Assembly (NCBI GenBank): GCA_015068085.1
Contig: SVLF01000006.1
Location: forward strand, 1-64,000
Direction: 5' to 3'
Length of the DNA: 64,000 nucleotides
From: Oscillospiraceae bacterium
GTDB taxonomy: Bacteria; Bacillota; Clostridia; Oscillospirales; JAAYXM01
Part shown: in pieces, positions 14,939 to 19,418 of the stretch
Layout: each line of letters begins with the position of its first letter
Position numbering within the stretch: the stretch's first letter is position 1
The notes under the pieces: generated by a model
Told to the model about the DNA's origin: nothing
What the model saw: the letters and a program-made list of their open reading frames with translations, nothing else
Database searches by the model: none
Made by a program: the position numbers and the translations under genes

Positions 14939-16276
14939 ATGAAAACAGGTTTTTCCAAAGTATGTATTAACCCGCCCTACGGTGCACCGATATGCGGATA
15001 TTATGAAGAACGCCTTGTAAAAGGAATAGCGGATGATTTATTCGTCCGCACAATTGCATTTGATGACGGCGAAAAAAAGGCTGTTGTTATCACGGTTGAT
15101 GTGTGCGAGCTTTCACAAAAATATTTTGACTCTATGAAAGATGCAGTTGCTTCTGCGTGCGACATACCACGCGAAGCGATATTTATAAACCTCTCCCACA
15201 CCCATACAGGTCCCGTTATCGGAAAGGACTTCGCATCAGAGCTTCGAAGCAGTGATGCCTATGACGAATTTTTCATCACAAGCGTTCGAGATGCGGCAGT
15301 TTATGCAATTGCAGATTTGAAAGAAACAGAAATTGAAACTGCCTGCGGACAGGCAAAGGGAATTTCCTTTATCCGCCGCTACAGAATGCGCGACGGCTCA
15401 GTCGCAACAAACCCCGGTGTCGGAAACCCTGACATTGACCACGCACTTGGAACGCCGAATGAAACGGTTAAGCTTGTAAAGCTTGTGCGTAAGGGCGGAG
15501 AGGATATCTTCATTGTCAGCTTTGGCACGCATCCGGATTCCGTCGGCGGGGAATATATCAGTGCAGACTATCCCGGTTATGTTTGCTCTACTCTCGAAAC
15601 GGCACTTCCGGGAACAAAATGCATGTTCCTCCAGGGCTTCCAGGGCGATGTAAACCACGTCAACCCTGCTCCGACCTCAGGCGAGAGTGCGATATCTGCA
15701 ATCGACTTTGACAGCGTTCCGCGAAGCCTTGCACACGCAAAGCACATGGGAAGAATAATCGCAGGGGCAGTTCTCGCTATCTGCTCAATCACAGAAAAGA
15801 TAAACGCAGATAAGATTTCGTATGCTTTTTCAAGAGTTGATCTTCCCTCACATCAGGAAAACGACAAGCTTGAAGAAGCAAAAAGGATCTGGACCCTTCA
15901 CGAAAACGGACGTGATGACGAGCTTCCGTATAAGGAAATGGAGCTTACAACCGTAGTTGCGGAAGCAAAGAGAATTGTAAAGCTTCAGAACGGTCCGGAG
16001 TCTTTCCCGTTTTATCTCTCTGCCGTCAAAATCGGCGAGCTTGTTTTTGCAGGAATCGGCGGTGAACCGTTCACAGAAATAGGAAACAGAATTGCGAATG
16101 CATCTCCGTTTAAAGAAACTATTCTCTGTGCTCTCACAAACACCTCGGGCGGATATATTCCCACAACGCAGGCATACAGCGAGGGCGGATATGAGGCAAG
16201 AAGCTCTTCCCTTGCCCCGGGCGGCGACGATATCATTGTCGAAGGTATGACAAAGCTTTTTGATGAGCTTAAATAA
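14939..16276 (+). CDS. Neutral/alkaline ceramidase-like N-terminal-domain hydrolase
   Basis: 445 aa; FSKVCINPPYGAPICGYYEERLVKGI...DDLFVRTIAFDDGEKKAVVITVDVCEL, NLSHTHTGP; paralogue of 58359..59705. No obvious signal peptide. Confidence 0.7.
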   Translation: MKTGFSKVCINPPYGAPICGYYEERLVKGIADDLFVRTIAFDDGEKKAVVITVDVCELSQKYFDSMKDAVASACDIPREAIFINLSHTHTGPVIGKDFASELRSSDAYDEFFITSVRDAAVYAIADLKETEIETACGQAKGISFIRRYRMRDGSVATNPGVGNPDIDHALGTPNETVKLVKLVRKGGEDIFIVSFGTHPDSVGGEYISADYPGYVCSTLETALPGTKCMFLQGFQGDVNHVNPAPTSGESAISAIDFDSVPRSLAHAKHMGRIIAGAVLAICSITEKINADKISYAFSRVDLPSHQENDKLEEAKRIWTLHENGRDDELPYKEMELTTVVAEAKRIVKLQNGPESFPFYLSAVKIGELVFAGIGGEPFTEIGNRIANASPFKETILCALTNTSGGYIPTTQAYSEGGYEARSSSLAPGGDDIIVEGMTKLFDELK

Positions 16277-16291
16277 ATAAAATAGCTTTAA

Positions 16292-16325
16292 AGCTGTGAC
16301 AGAAAATTTCCGTCACAGCTTTTTG
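16292..16325 (+). terminator. Rho-independent terminator
   Basis: AGCTGTGAC...GTCACAGCT followed by TTTTT. Confidence 0.8.
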
Positions 16326-16338
16326 CATAATTTATTTT

Positions 16339-16542
16339 TTAACTCGCTCCGCTTGTGATAAGCTCACCGCACAGCCTGCACGCACTTTGAGAATATTCCT
16401 TCAGCATCTCATTCGGTACGGTAAGCGCATTTGCCGGAATCACGCAAGAATTATTCTGCATGGCAAGCTCCAGCGCAAGAAACGTATCCGAAAGAAAAAC
16501 TATGTTATCAAGTATTTTTTCCAGTTGAAATAAATTTTCCAT
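16339..16542 (-). CDS. Small hypothetical protein (67 aa)
   Basis: ORF preceded on minus strand by GATAGGAGAATGAA Shine-Dalgarno-like sequence; no recognised family. Confidence 0.55.
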   Translation of the reverse strand: MENLFQLEKILDNIVFLSDTFLALELAMQNNSCVIPANALTVPNEMLKEYSQSACRLCGELITSGAS

Positions 16543-16602
16543 TTCATTCTCCTATCAAAAATGTATTTGACAGAGGAAGTCTGCATAGTGTATAATATTT
16601 AT

Positions 16603-16676
16603 GCTGACAGTTCTCCTGTCGGGATTAAGTAGAGTGTTTGTAACTTGTTCAGGGTCGCAATGCTCTACTTTTTTAT
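16603..16676 (+). ncRNA. Putative small RNA 1, convergent with RHH gene and antisense to leader of 67-aa ORF
   Basis: TTGACA(16567)-N18-TATAAT(16591) upstream; hairpin GACAG-TTCTC-CTGTC; terminator stem AAGTAGAG/CTCTACTT plus T6; homologous to 16950..17022. Confidence 0.6.
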
Positions 16677-16838
16677 TTCTTCGTAAACCTTTTCAATTCC
16701 TTCCATCACTATCTGATACTGCGTTTTTCCCGTTTCTGCACAACAAAAAGCAAGTTTTTCTTTATCTTCTTTTGTTGCACGAATTTTAATCTCGGTAGTT
16801 TTAGGATTTGACGTAGGTCTACCTGTCCGTGGACTCAT
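16665..16838 (-). CDS. Ribbon-helix-helix (CopG-like) small protein, copy 1
   Basis: Manual translation MSPRTGRPTSNPKTTEIKIRATKEDKEKLAFCCAETGKTQYQIVMEGIEKVYEEIKK*, 57 aa; GAGGTGG RBS upstream. Below ORF-track length cutoff. Confidence 0.82.
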   Translation of the reverse strand: MSPRTGRPTSNPKTTEIKIRATKEDKEKLAFCCAETGKTQYQIVMEGIEKVYEEIKK

Positions 16839-16949
16839 TTTTCCACCTCACTTTCGTTCACACAAAAGTCAAGAGTTTTTATTTTTGCATTATCTTCTCC
16901 TATCAAAAAATATATTTGACAGAATGCTACGCCTATATTATAATATTTA

Positions 16950-17022
16950 CAGACGGAGCTTTCTCTGTCGGGAAAGATAACAGCTACGAACTTTTAACAT
17001 GGGTAAGTGGCTGTTATTTTTC
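16950..17022 (+). ncRNA. Putative small RNA 2, convergent with RHH gene
   Basis: TTGACA(16916)-N17-TATAAT(16939) promoter; hairpin GACGGAG-CTTT-CTCTGTC; terminator stem ATAACAGC/GCTGTTAT plus U-tract; loop AACTTnTnnCAnGGGT shared with copy 1. Confidence 0.6.
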
Positions 17023-17194
17023 ATTTTTCGGCATTCATAAGCATGCGTATCCCTTGTCGAATTGCTTCACCTTTCGTTATTTCATGCTTTTTGCAGTATT
17101 CTTGCAGTTTTTTTTCAGTTTCTGCATCAAGCCTTATGCTATAACGAACATCCTTGGGATTTTCCGCTTTAGGTCTGCCCGTTCTTGGTGACAT
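17021..17194 (-). CDS. Ribbon-helix-helix (CopG-like) small protein, copy 2
   Basis: Manual translation MSPRTGRPKAENPKDVRYSIRLDAETEKKLQEYCKKHEITKGEAIRQGIRMLMNAEK*, 57 aa; TTGACT-N17-TATAAT and GAGGTG upstream on minus strand. Confidence 0.87.
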   Translation of the reverse strand: MSPRTGRPKAENPKDVRYSIRLDAETEKKLQEYCKKHEITKGEAIRQGIRMLMNAEK

Positions 17195-17280
17195 AATTTC
17201 ACCTCACTTTTTGCCACACCTATATTATAGTTTATGTCACGCAAAAAGTCAAGAGTTTTTTTCCTTTTTTTATTCATCAA

Positions 17281-17327: not shown

Positions 17328-19109
17328 TTACTTATCAAGACGAGCCTTGAGAGCTTCGAGCTGATCATACATTTCCTTCGGCATTCTGTTGCCTACACTC
17401 TGAATCTTAGCATAGAACTCTTCGAGGTTTGCAGCATCCTCTTTCCAGAGCTGCGGATCAACGGAGAGAATCTCCTTAAGAACATCGAGAGTTACCTCAT
17501 CCTCGATACCCTCACGGTTGATGTCCTCAGCCTTCGGAACATAACCGATTGCTGTCTCGTCTGCGCCGATTTCATCATCGCAGCGCTTGAGGATCCACTC
17601 AAGAACGCGGAGGTTGTCACCGAATCCCGGCCAGAGGAACTTGCCGTCATCGCTTGTTCTGAACCAGTTTGTGTTGAAGATCTTCGGCTTCTTTGTGATC
17701 TTCTTGCCCATTTCAATCCAGTGGTTGAAATAGTCACCCATGTTGTATCCGCAGAACGGAAGCATAGCCATCGGATCACGACGAACAACGCCGACTGCAC
17801 CTGCAGCTGCAGCAGTTGTCTCGGAAGCCATAGCAGAACCTACGAATACACCGTGGTTCCAGTCAAATGACTGGTAAACGAGCGGAGCAGTTTTTGCACG
17901 GCGGCCGCCGAATACGATAGCAGAGAGCGGAACGCCCTTCGGGTTCTCGAATTCCGGAGAAATGCACGGGCAATTTGATGCCGGAGCTGTGAAACGGCTG
18001 TTGGGATGTGCACCCTTCTCGCCGGACTCGCAGTCCCACTTCTCGCCCTTCCAGTTAAGAGCATTCTTCGGCGGGTTCTTATCAAGACCTTCCCACCAAA
18101 CGGTGTTGTCATCAAGGTTGTGAACAACGTTTGTATAGATTGTACCCTTAAGGCAAGACTTAAGAGCATTCGGGTTAGACTTAAGGTTTGTTCCCGGAGC
18201 AACACCGAAGAAGCCTGCTTCGGGGTTGATAGCCCAGAGACGACCGTCATCACCAACACGAATCCATGCGATATCGTCGCCTACGCACTCAACCTCATAT
18301 CCCTTATCGAGGTATTCCTTCGGCGGAATAAGCATAGCAAGGTTGGTCTTACCGCAAGCAGACGGGAACGCTGCTGCGATATATTTTTTCTCTCCGCTCG
18401 GAAGCTTAACACCGAGGATAAGCATATGCTCTGCCATCCAGCCTTCGTTCTTGCCCTGATAGGAAGCAATACGAAGAGCAAAGCACTTCTTACCGAGAAG
18501 AACGTTGCCGCCGTAACCGGAGTTGATAGACCAGATTGTGTTATCCTGTGGGAACTGAACAATGTATCTCTCTTCAGGATCCATGTTTGCACGGCTGTGA
18601 AGACCGTGAACGAAATCAGCACTGTCGCCAAGGTTGTCAAGAACAGCCTTGCCGATGCGTGTCATGATAGCCATATTAAGAACAACATAGATAGAATCCG
18701 TAATTTCGATGCCCGGCTTCGCAAACGGAGAACCTACAACACCCATTGAGAACGGGAGAACATACATTGTCTTGCCCTTCATGCTGCCGTCGTAAAGCTT
18801 TCTGAGCTTTGCGTACATCTCAGCAGGATCCATCCAGTTATTTGTTGCGCCTGCCTCTTCCTTTGTGGGAGCACAGATGAAAGTACGGTCCTCAACGCGA
18901 GCAACGTCGTCAATTGCAGTTCTGTGGAGATAGCAACCGGGAAGCTTCTCTTCGTTGAGCTTATAGATTTCGCCTGTAGCGCAACCCTCTGCGCGGAGAG
19001 CCTCAAGCTGCTCCTCGCTGCCGTCGATCCAAACGATCTTATCCGGCTTGACAAGGTCAGCCATTTCGTTGACCCAGTCGTTTACAAATTTGTTTGTCGT
19101 TAAACTCAT
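17328..19109 (-). CDS. pckG: Phosphoenolpyruvate carboxykinase (GTP-type)
   Basis: FPSACGKTNLAMLIPP, ECVGDDIAWI, NPEAGFFGVAPGTN; start at MSLTTNKF preferred over ORF-track start 19139. Confidence 0.93.
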   Translation of the reverse strand: MSLTTNKFVNDWVNEMADLVKPDKIVWIDGSEEQLEALRAEGCATGEIYKLNEEKLPGCYLHRTAIDDVARVEDRTFICAPTKEEAGATNNWMDPAEMYAKLRKLYDGSMKGKTMYVLPFSMGVVGSPFAKPGIEITDSIYVVLNMAIMTRIGKAVLDNLGDSADFVHGLHSRANMDPEERYIVQFPQDNTIWSINSGYGGNVLLGKKCFALRIASYQGKNEGWMAEHMLILGVKLPSGEKKYIAAAFPSACGKTNLAMLIPPKEYLDKGYEVECVGDDIAWIRVGDDGRLWAINPEAGFFGVAPGTNLKSNPNALKSCLKGTIYTNVVHNLDDNTVWWEGLDKNPPKNALNWKGEKWDCESGEKGAHPNSRFTAPASNCPCISPEFENPKGVPLSAIVFGGRRAKTAPLVYQSFDWNHGVFVGSAMASETTAAAAGAVGVVRRDPMAMLPFCGYNMGDYFNHWIEMGKKITKKPKIFNTNWFRTSDDGKFLWPGFGDNLRVLEWILKRCDDEIGADETAIGYVPKAEDINREGIEDEVTLDVLKEILSVDPQLWKEDAANLEEFYAKIQSVGNRMPKEMYDQLEALKARLDK

Positions 19110-19418
19110 TGTGAATTTGCCCCTTTCGTAATTGTGCATTTTTTGCTATTTACTATTTTATTATGTTTTGACGCAAATATCAAGAGTAAATTGGAAGAAA
19201 AACAAAATTTTAACAAAAACTTTTTATTCATTTTGACTATAAATAAAAAAATCCATCGCAATTTTCGTGTTTTTGTAAAAAATTTCCAGTGGTTTTCTCC
19301 TCGTTTTTCTTCTTACGCCCATTTTATTATTTATCTTTTTCTTTTCGCCATACATTTCCCGTGAGGTTATTTATAAAAAACAGTATATACTCTACCTTGA
19401 AAGGAATGATAAAATAAT

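Follow-up and report, generated by a model that had tools for sequence, protein, structure and literature searches.

What kind of control circuit is formed by two small ribbon-helix-helix (RHH) genes on a bacterial chromosome, each with a convergent promoter behind it? The locus that raises this question lies in a 64,000-nucleotide stretch of DNA (the window), and it had been likened to the control circuit of pMV158-type plasmids. The analysis below points to a different relative. The locus is probably a Gram-positive variant of the arc-sar-ant arrangement of phage P22, with a switch at the Shine-Dalgarno sequence (SD) and an exchangeable controlled gene (the cargo), here on a chromosome and with a cargo that is not an antirepressor.

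The sar RNA of P22 has served as a textbook example of an antisense RNA from 1987 on, and has been treated as a peculiarity of one phage. The results indicate that the three-part design, with a different and testable switch in the leader, is common in Clostridia, streptococci and a fusobacterial phage. This design of RHH gene, antisense RNA and cargo is absent from Rfam, and it occurs in phages and also on chromosomes, with other cargo genes. No earlier description of a Gram-positive module like arc-sar-ant was found in the open-licence literature or in Rfam. It would also account in part for the many small genes that lack annotation in bacteria of this kind.

The features of the locus are collected in Table 1. 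According to the ORF list and the sequence, the order on the minus strand is RHH1, RHH2 and then a 67-aa frame. A PEPCK gene (17328-19139) lies upstream on the same strand, and a 445-aa gene (14939-16276) faces the locus. The whole appears to be two stacked RHH-antisense RNA-cargo modules, with one small gene that is apparently double-locked. Both 57-aa RHH genes and the 67-aa frame are present where the original prediction had placed them. Its two plus-strand units of promoter, hairpin and terminator were also found, with perfect -35 and -10 hexamers and predicted RNAs that end at the RHH stops. The tandem copies it described are borne out; copy 1, however, is reduced to M-Q-K-stop behind its RNA. 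That annotation would easily overlook such a locus is likewise supported.

Table 1 Features of the stacked RHH modules, in window coordinates.
Feature	Position	Strand	Basis
RHH1 promoter TTGACT-17-TATAAT, overlapped by an inverted repeat that is probably the RHH operator	17206..17252	-	11/12, repeat I2
RHH1, 57-aa RHH repressor	17021..17194	-	Pfam RHH_1, phrog_876, model
Predicted antisense RNA 1: 5' hairpin and terminator reaching RHH1 stop	16950..17026	+	fold z -7.4
Promoter of antisense RNA 1, TTGACA-17-TATAAT	16916..16944	+	12/12
SD and remnant start of lost copy-1 cargo, M-Q-K-stop	16879..16904, frame 16879-16890	-	sequence
RHH2, 57-aa RHH protein; own promoter without -10 region	16665..16838	-	PHROG match, comparison with L007
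Predicted antisense RNA 2: 5' hairpin and terminator reaching RHH2 stop	16602..16674	+	fold z -4.3
Promoter of antisense RNA 2, TTGACA-18-TATAAT	16567..16596	+	12/12
SD-hiding leader hairpin of 67-aa ORF: antisense-promoter complement pairs with UUUGAUAGG	16547..16579	-	fold; locus-specific pairing in relatives
Cargo: 67-aa predicted helical-hairpin protein	16339..16542	-	ORF, congener homologues, model mean pLDDT 86
Inverted repeat at operon end, probably a terminator common to the facing gene	16272..16340	.	repeat I1

RHH1 matches the Pfam family RHH_1 (E 3.6e-4), and phrog_876, 'transcriptional repressor', is matched by all 42 of the 42 aligned RHH relatives. A structure model from a single window sequence has helices at residues 24-37 and 41-56. 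Upstream of the RHH gene, a promoter scoring 10/12 or better (TTGACT/TATAAT) is found in 83 of 86 relatives, and the inverted-repeat score there averages 8.5 versus 5.7 after shuffling. The RHH protein may well regulate its own promoter.

Copy 1 lost its cargo, because the frame behind RNA 1 is only SD-ATG-CAA-AAA-TAA (16904-16879). Upstream of RHH2, TTGACTTTTGTGTGAAC runs straight into GAAAGTGAGG. In L007, a close relative of RHH2, the same flanks have a -10 region and a second GTGTGAAC in between. It seems that the -10 of RHH2 was lost by deletion between two GTGTGAAC repeats. Given that RHH2 lacks a -10, both modules are probably a single operon, transcribed from the RHH1 promoter (17252-17224).

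Other stacked loci likewise show cargo starts that break off. L009 has a stub MQLPQTVEISS, followed by the full cargo MQLPKVLEVKG..., and L079 has MDITKIS and then MDIMRIE... There are longer arrays too. L064 contains three RHH-antisense modules in series, with near-identical antisense promoters and the stub MSEERKRV behind two of them. L141 (G094 contig 12, 712500-717500) has at least six tandem RHH genes within 1.7 kb, with an antisense unit behind at least the last two, and this array ends in a 93-aa cargo. The genome of L141 (G094) holds 16 RHH copies, and its relative G027 has 13.

The two antisense promoters, both on the plus strand, are the only sigma-70-type sites that score 12/12 in the 2.8-kb region. 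Each predicted RNA has a 5' hairpin and a long-stem terminator, for a length of about 73 nt (RNA 2) or 77-80 nt (RNA 1), and the T-run of the terminator abuts or enters the RHH stop codon. The fold z given for RNA 1 is relative to shuffles, as is that for RNA 2, and was computed on 16950-17029; the minus-strand leaders fold well too, at z -3.7 and -4.8. Both RNAs are presumably transcribed. In the own 3.17-Mb assembly, estimated to be 88% complete, the promoter-plus-hairpin pattern has no third occurrence, and no members of the RHH family were found beyond RHH1 and RHH2.

Among relatives, the antisense -10 most often ends 67 nt away from the RHH stop. The terminator stems covary: six pairs survive in what is a poor MAFFT alignment, and each of them has changed in both halves of the stem, in 2 to 29 sequences. 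The covariance model lacks the strength needed to search genomes, and spread was therefore gauged through the RHH protein. Loops are often UUGGU-like. YUNR, which forms the U-turn in kissing loops of antisense RNAs (PMC4485353), is found in or next to the apical loop in 76 of 86, although this is a loose motif. Rfam returned nothing relevant for the window and 20 relatives, and no curated RNA model matched.

How often does the RHH gene come with such a promoter? Relatives were picked on RHH protein sequence alone among candidate stretches of 85,462 species genomes, using the best 80 of 176. For 70 of the 87 distinct RHH genes, the 60-nt slot behind the RHH stop contains an antisense promoter that scores 9/12 or better. 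Dinucleotide shuffles give a chance level of 5.0, and the opposite strand gives 6. At 22 of the 87 the antisense promoter is perfect, versus 0. A search of viral contigs, with single RHH proteins as queries, found a convergent promoter, equally spaced, at 83 of 103 RHH relatives. In all 14 of the 14 phage or plasmid copies examined, including that of Fusobacterium phage Funu2, a site resembling an antisense promoter lies at 62-95 nt. The co-occurrence of RHH gene and antisense promoter is not due to chance. A check on such co-occurrence had been suggested along with the original prediction, and the outcome is strongly positive in genomic and viral relatives alike.

Of the 295 genomes examined in the order, 23 contain a match to the RHH family profile, in a few cases a weak one, and the module also occurs in streptococcal, C. 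difficile and fusobacterial phages. Relatives were found via the MSPRTGRP-type start of the protein, and RHH genes that share the arrangement but diverge further in sequence would therefore have been missed.

The SD of the 67-aa ORF (16549-16556) lies outside predicted RNA 2. The leader can be divided into three segments. Segment 1 is complementary to the ~25 nt at the 5' end of the predicted RNA, segment 2 is the complement of the antisense promoter between -10 and -35, and segment 3 is the next 32 nt, including the SD. Duplex energies were compared to those of partners swapped between loci, by which the promoter and SD consensus is kept. Over 69 loci, the duplex of segments 1 and 2 has an energy of -19.2 kcal/mol versus -9.4 when swapped (z -21.7), and that of segments 2 and 3 reaches -12.4 versus -8.9 kcal/mol (z -11.2). 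The control pair, segments 1 and 3, comes to -7.4 versus -7.2 kcal/mol (z -0.9). In 65 viral-contig loci not close to the first set, the z values are -23.5, -13.3 and +0.5 respectively. Kinship of the loci inflates z, and the control pair carries the same kinship. The leader can thus form two mutually exclusive hairpins, since segment 2 has two possible partners, the antisense target and the SD region, and both pairings are locus-specific. This two-way hairpin, which links the RNA to the SD, is absent from the original prediction and is new here.

The mismatches in these duplexes tell the two pairings apart. Between segments 2 and 3 there are 64 G-U and 11 A-C mismatches, versus about 42 and 17 with swapped partners, an excess of G-U as expected for RNA pairing. 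Between segments 1 and 2 the G-U to A-C counts are 59:39, versus 37:23 swapped. There is no G-U excess here, so this repeat may act partly as DNA, for example as an operator. It has a slight similarity to the RHH operator (7.03 versus 6.77, reached by 2.6% of permutations).

SD hairpins without a cargo behind them are weaker (mean -10.3 versus -13.3, p 0.03). In window copy 2, the minimum-energy leader already has its SD hidden, even without the RNA. The leader of copy 1 favours the open form, with segments 1 and 2 paired. Once segment 1 is left out of the fold, the SD hairpin is available to both copies. In a sister species, G001, the corresponding site beside PEPCK holds one copy of the module. 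Its cargo is homologous, its antisense promoter is perfect and the SD hairpin is retained. In the sister species leader, UUUGAUAGG of the window has become AUUGACAGG, facing the same UCUGUCAA, which turns one G-U pair into G-C.

The following working is proposed. The RHH protein would repress its own promoter via the inverted repeat around the -10, and this would limit the RHH-RHH-cargo mRNA. The convergent RNA, made constitutively, would pair with the part of the mRNA that directly follows the RHH stop. When there is no antisense RNA, segment 1 could pair with segment 2, and the SD in segment 3 would stay open. With antisense RNA on segment 1, segment 2 would be free to pair with segment 3, the SD would be hidden and the cargo would go untranslated. 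Cargo would then be made only if both locks fail. It is this direction of the switch that we infer, along with the role of the 67-aa protein as cargo.

Since the antisense -35 box is also part of the anti-SD strand, the relatives would provide a large natural series on how an SD hairpin co-evolves with an antisense RNA and the promoter of that RNA.

Arc of P22 is a 53-aa RHH repressor. In that phage, sar is an antisense RNA against ant, and ant is controlled by Arc and Mnt (PMC2629481, PMC11016777). P22 has the order that is predicted for the window: a small RHH repressor, then a convergent antisense RNA, then the controlled gene. The fetched immI sequence has the end of arc at 531, the SD of ant at 586 and the start of ant at 600. 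The best-scoring antisense promoter there is 8/12, with its -10 at 72-74 nt from the arc stop; in the window this distance is 68 and 76 nt. The antisense strand of P22 folds into a 5' hairpin and a 14-bp terminator stem, and a 5' hairpin with a long terminator at the RHH stop is also what the sequence predicts for the window. Viral relatives of the module carry antirepressors, three of them with the P22_AR_N domain. Because phage cargos are often antirepressors, and because the promoter is at nearly the same distance, immI is the closest known system.

There are differences however. In P22 the antisense promoter is inside ant, and sar therefore covers the ant SD itself. Here the promoter is upstream of the SD, which the predicted RNA does not cover, and segment 2 is the go-between. 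There is also no divergent mnt, as the gene upstream of RHH1 is PEPCK on the same strand, and the window cargo is not an antirepressor.

The copG-RNAII-repB operon of pMV158 is the second analogue, after immI. There too, the downstream gene of an operon is under the joint control of a small RHH repressor and a countertranscript. RNAII is 48 nt long and consists of a single hairpin with a tail of 17 nt, and a normal SD is missing from repB (PMC4485353). The window, unlike this, has predicted RNAs of ~73-80 nt with two hairpins, a normal SD and no Rep, so the earlier choice of pMV158 as nearest relative gives way to P22.

The cargos are diverse. In C. difficile phiCDIF1296T the annotated cargo is a KilAC antirepressor, in Fusobacterium phage Funu2 it is Rha, and several streptococcal phages have the module, then a small ORF and then an antirepressor. 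Antirepressor-type Pfam families account for 31 of 86 viral cargos (Rha 10, Bro-N 7, ORF6N 7, AntA 4, P22_AR_N 3), a sum of family counts that assumes no protein is counted double. In bacterial genomes, ORF6N and Rha together make up 10 of 63 cargos, and the rest is mostly HNH genes and many small unassigned frames. No Rep was found by Pfam among the 63 genomic and 86 viral cargos.

The 67-aa cargo of the window has homologues in two of four congeners, and only there among the 295 genomes of the order. The one in G001 is 45% identical and sits behind its own RHH gene and antisense RNA. G003 has four homologues (L136, L138, L139, L140), with small Xre-type helix-turn-helix (HTH) genes near at least three, and no RHH of this family was found in it. 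The cargo family therefore seems to move between different small regulators. The model of the protein, from a single sequence, is a helical hairpin. A structure search with it against the PDB gave no match at E below 1, and the protein has no significant Pfam or PHROG match, nor one to an antirepressor or toxin family. The earlier suggestion of dual control of a small non-Rep protein, by a protein and an antisense RNA, finds computational support, the RNA being predicted and the cargo not being Rep.

Other readings start from the same parts. The convergent promoter could act by transcription itself, through polymerase collision or promoter occlusion, with RNase III on the duplex and the leader hairpins incidental. 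Perfect promoters do oppose the RHH-cargo transcript in both copies, but interference alone does not need a pairing of segments 2 and 3 that is locus-specific and replicated, and we consider this unlikely. Similar doubts apply to premature termination of transcription upon antisense binding, as in pT181 and pIP501, where an antisense RNA also selects between exclusive leader hairpins. The outcome there is a terminator; here the common feature is SD hiding, together with an RHH repressor. Many relatives (L007, L014, L063) have a U-rich stretch between the hairpin of segments 2 and 3 and the start codon, as attenuation would have it. Behind the SD hairpin of the window comes AUGAAAUG, which has no U-run, as is also the case in L044, and this makes attenuation improbable.

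RHH proteins are often antitoxins, and it is natural to think of a type II toxin-antitoxin operon with the 67-aa protein as toxin. By eye, an RHH relative without RNA unit in L027 (2001-2474) is followed by a RelE/ParE-like frame, and an MNT/HEPN-like pair occupies the slot of the module in a sister species (L104). Yet a 57-aa RHH protein leaves little space for a toxin-binding tail, the cargos are mutually unrelated and include antirepressors and HNH proteins, and the 67-aa family persists in G003 next to Xre-type genes instead of this RHH family. A toxin-antitoxin operon is accordingly quite improbable. In L027 itself, the same RHH family apparently serves as antitoxin. Least probable, and very much so, is a chromosomal remnant of a pMV158-type replication control region. 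The order of repressor, countertranscript and downstream gene is the same, and RHH2 has a sub-threshold Pfam match to RepB-RCR_reg. The predicted two-hairpin RNA is however unlike RNAII, and a plasmid collection gives two matches only, both C. difficile elements, one of which on inspection has a phage antirepressor gene behind its RHH. With no Rep cargo, this candidate is largely refuted by the cargo survey.

A further idea concerns the stacked copies without cargo. Conceivably, if rather doubtfully, these are an immunity bank, in which each retained repressor and RNA would silence in trans the matching antirepressor operons of incoming phages or elements. If so, the arrays (two modules in the window, three modules in L064 and no fewer than six RHH genes in L141) would document earlier superinfections.

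Two congeners differ at the site behind PEPCK. In G004, no module was seen behind PEPCK when the sequence was read by eye. Sister species G002 (L104), also read by eye, has an MNT-like nucleotidyltransferase and a HEPN-like gene there instead. The intergenic site behind PEPCK may therefore be a hotspot for small cassettes.
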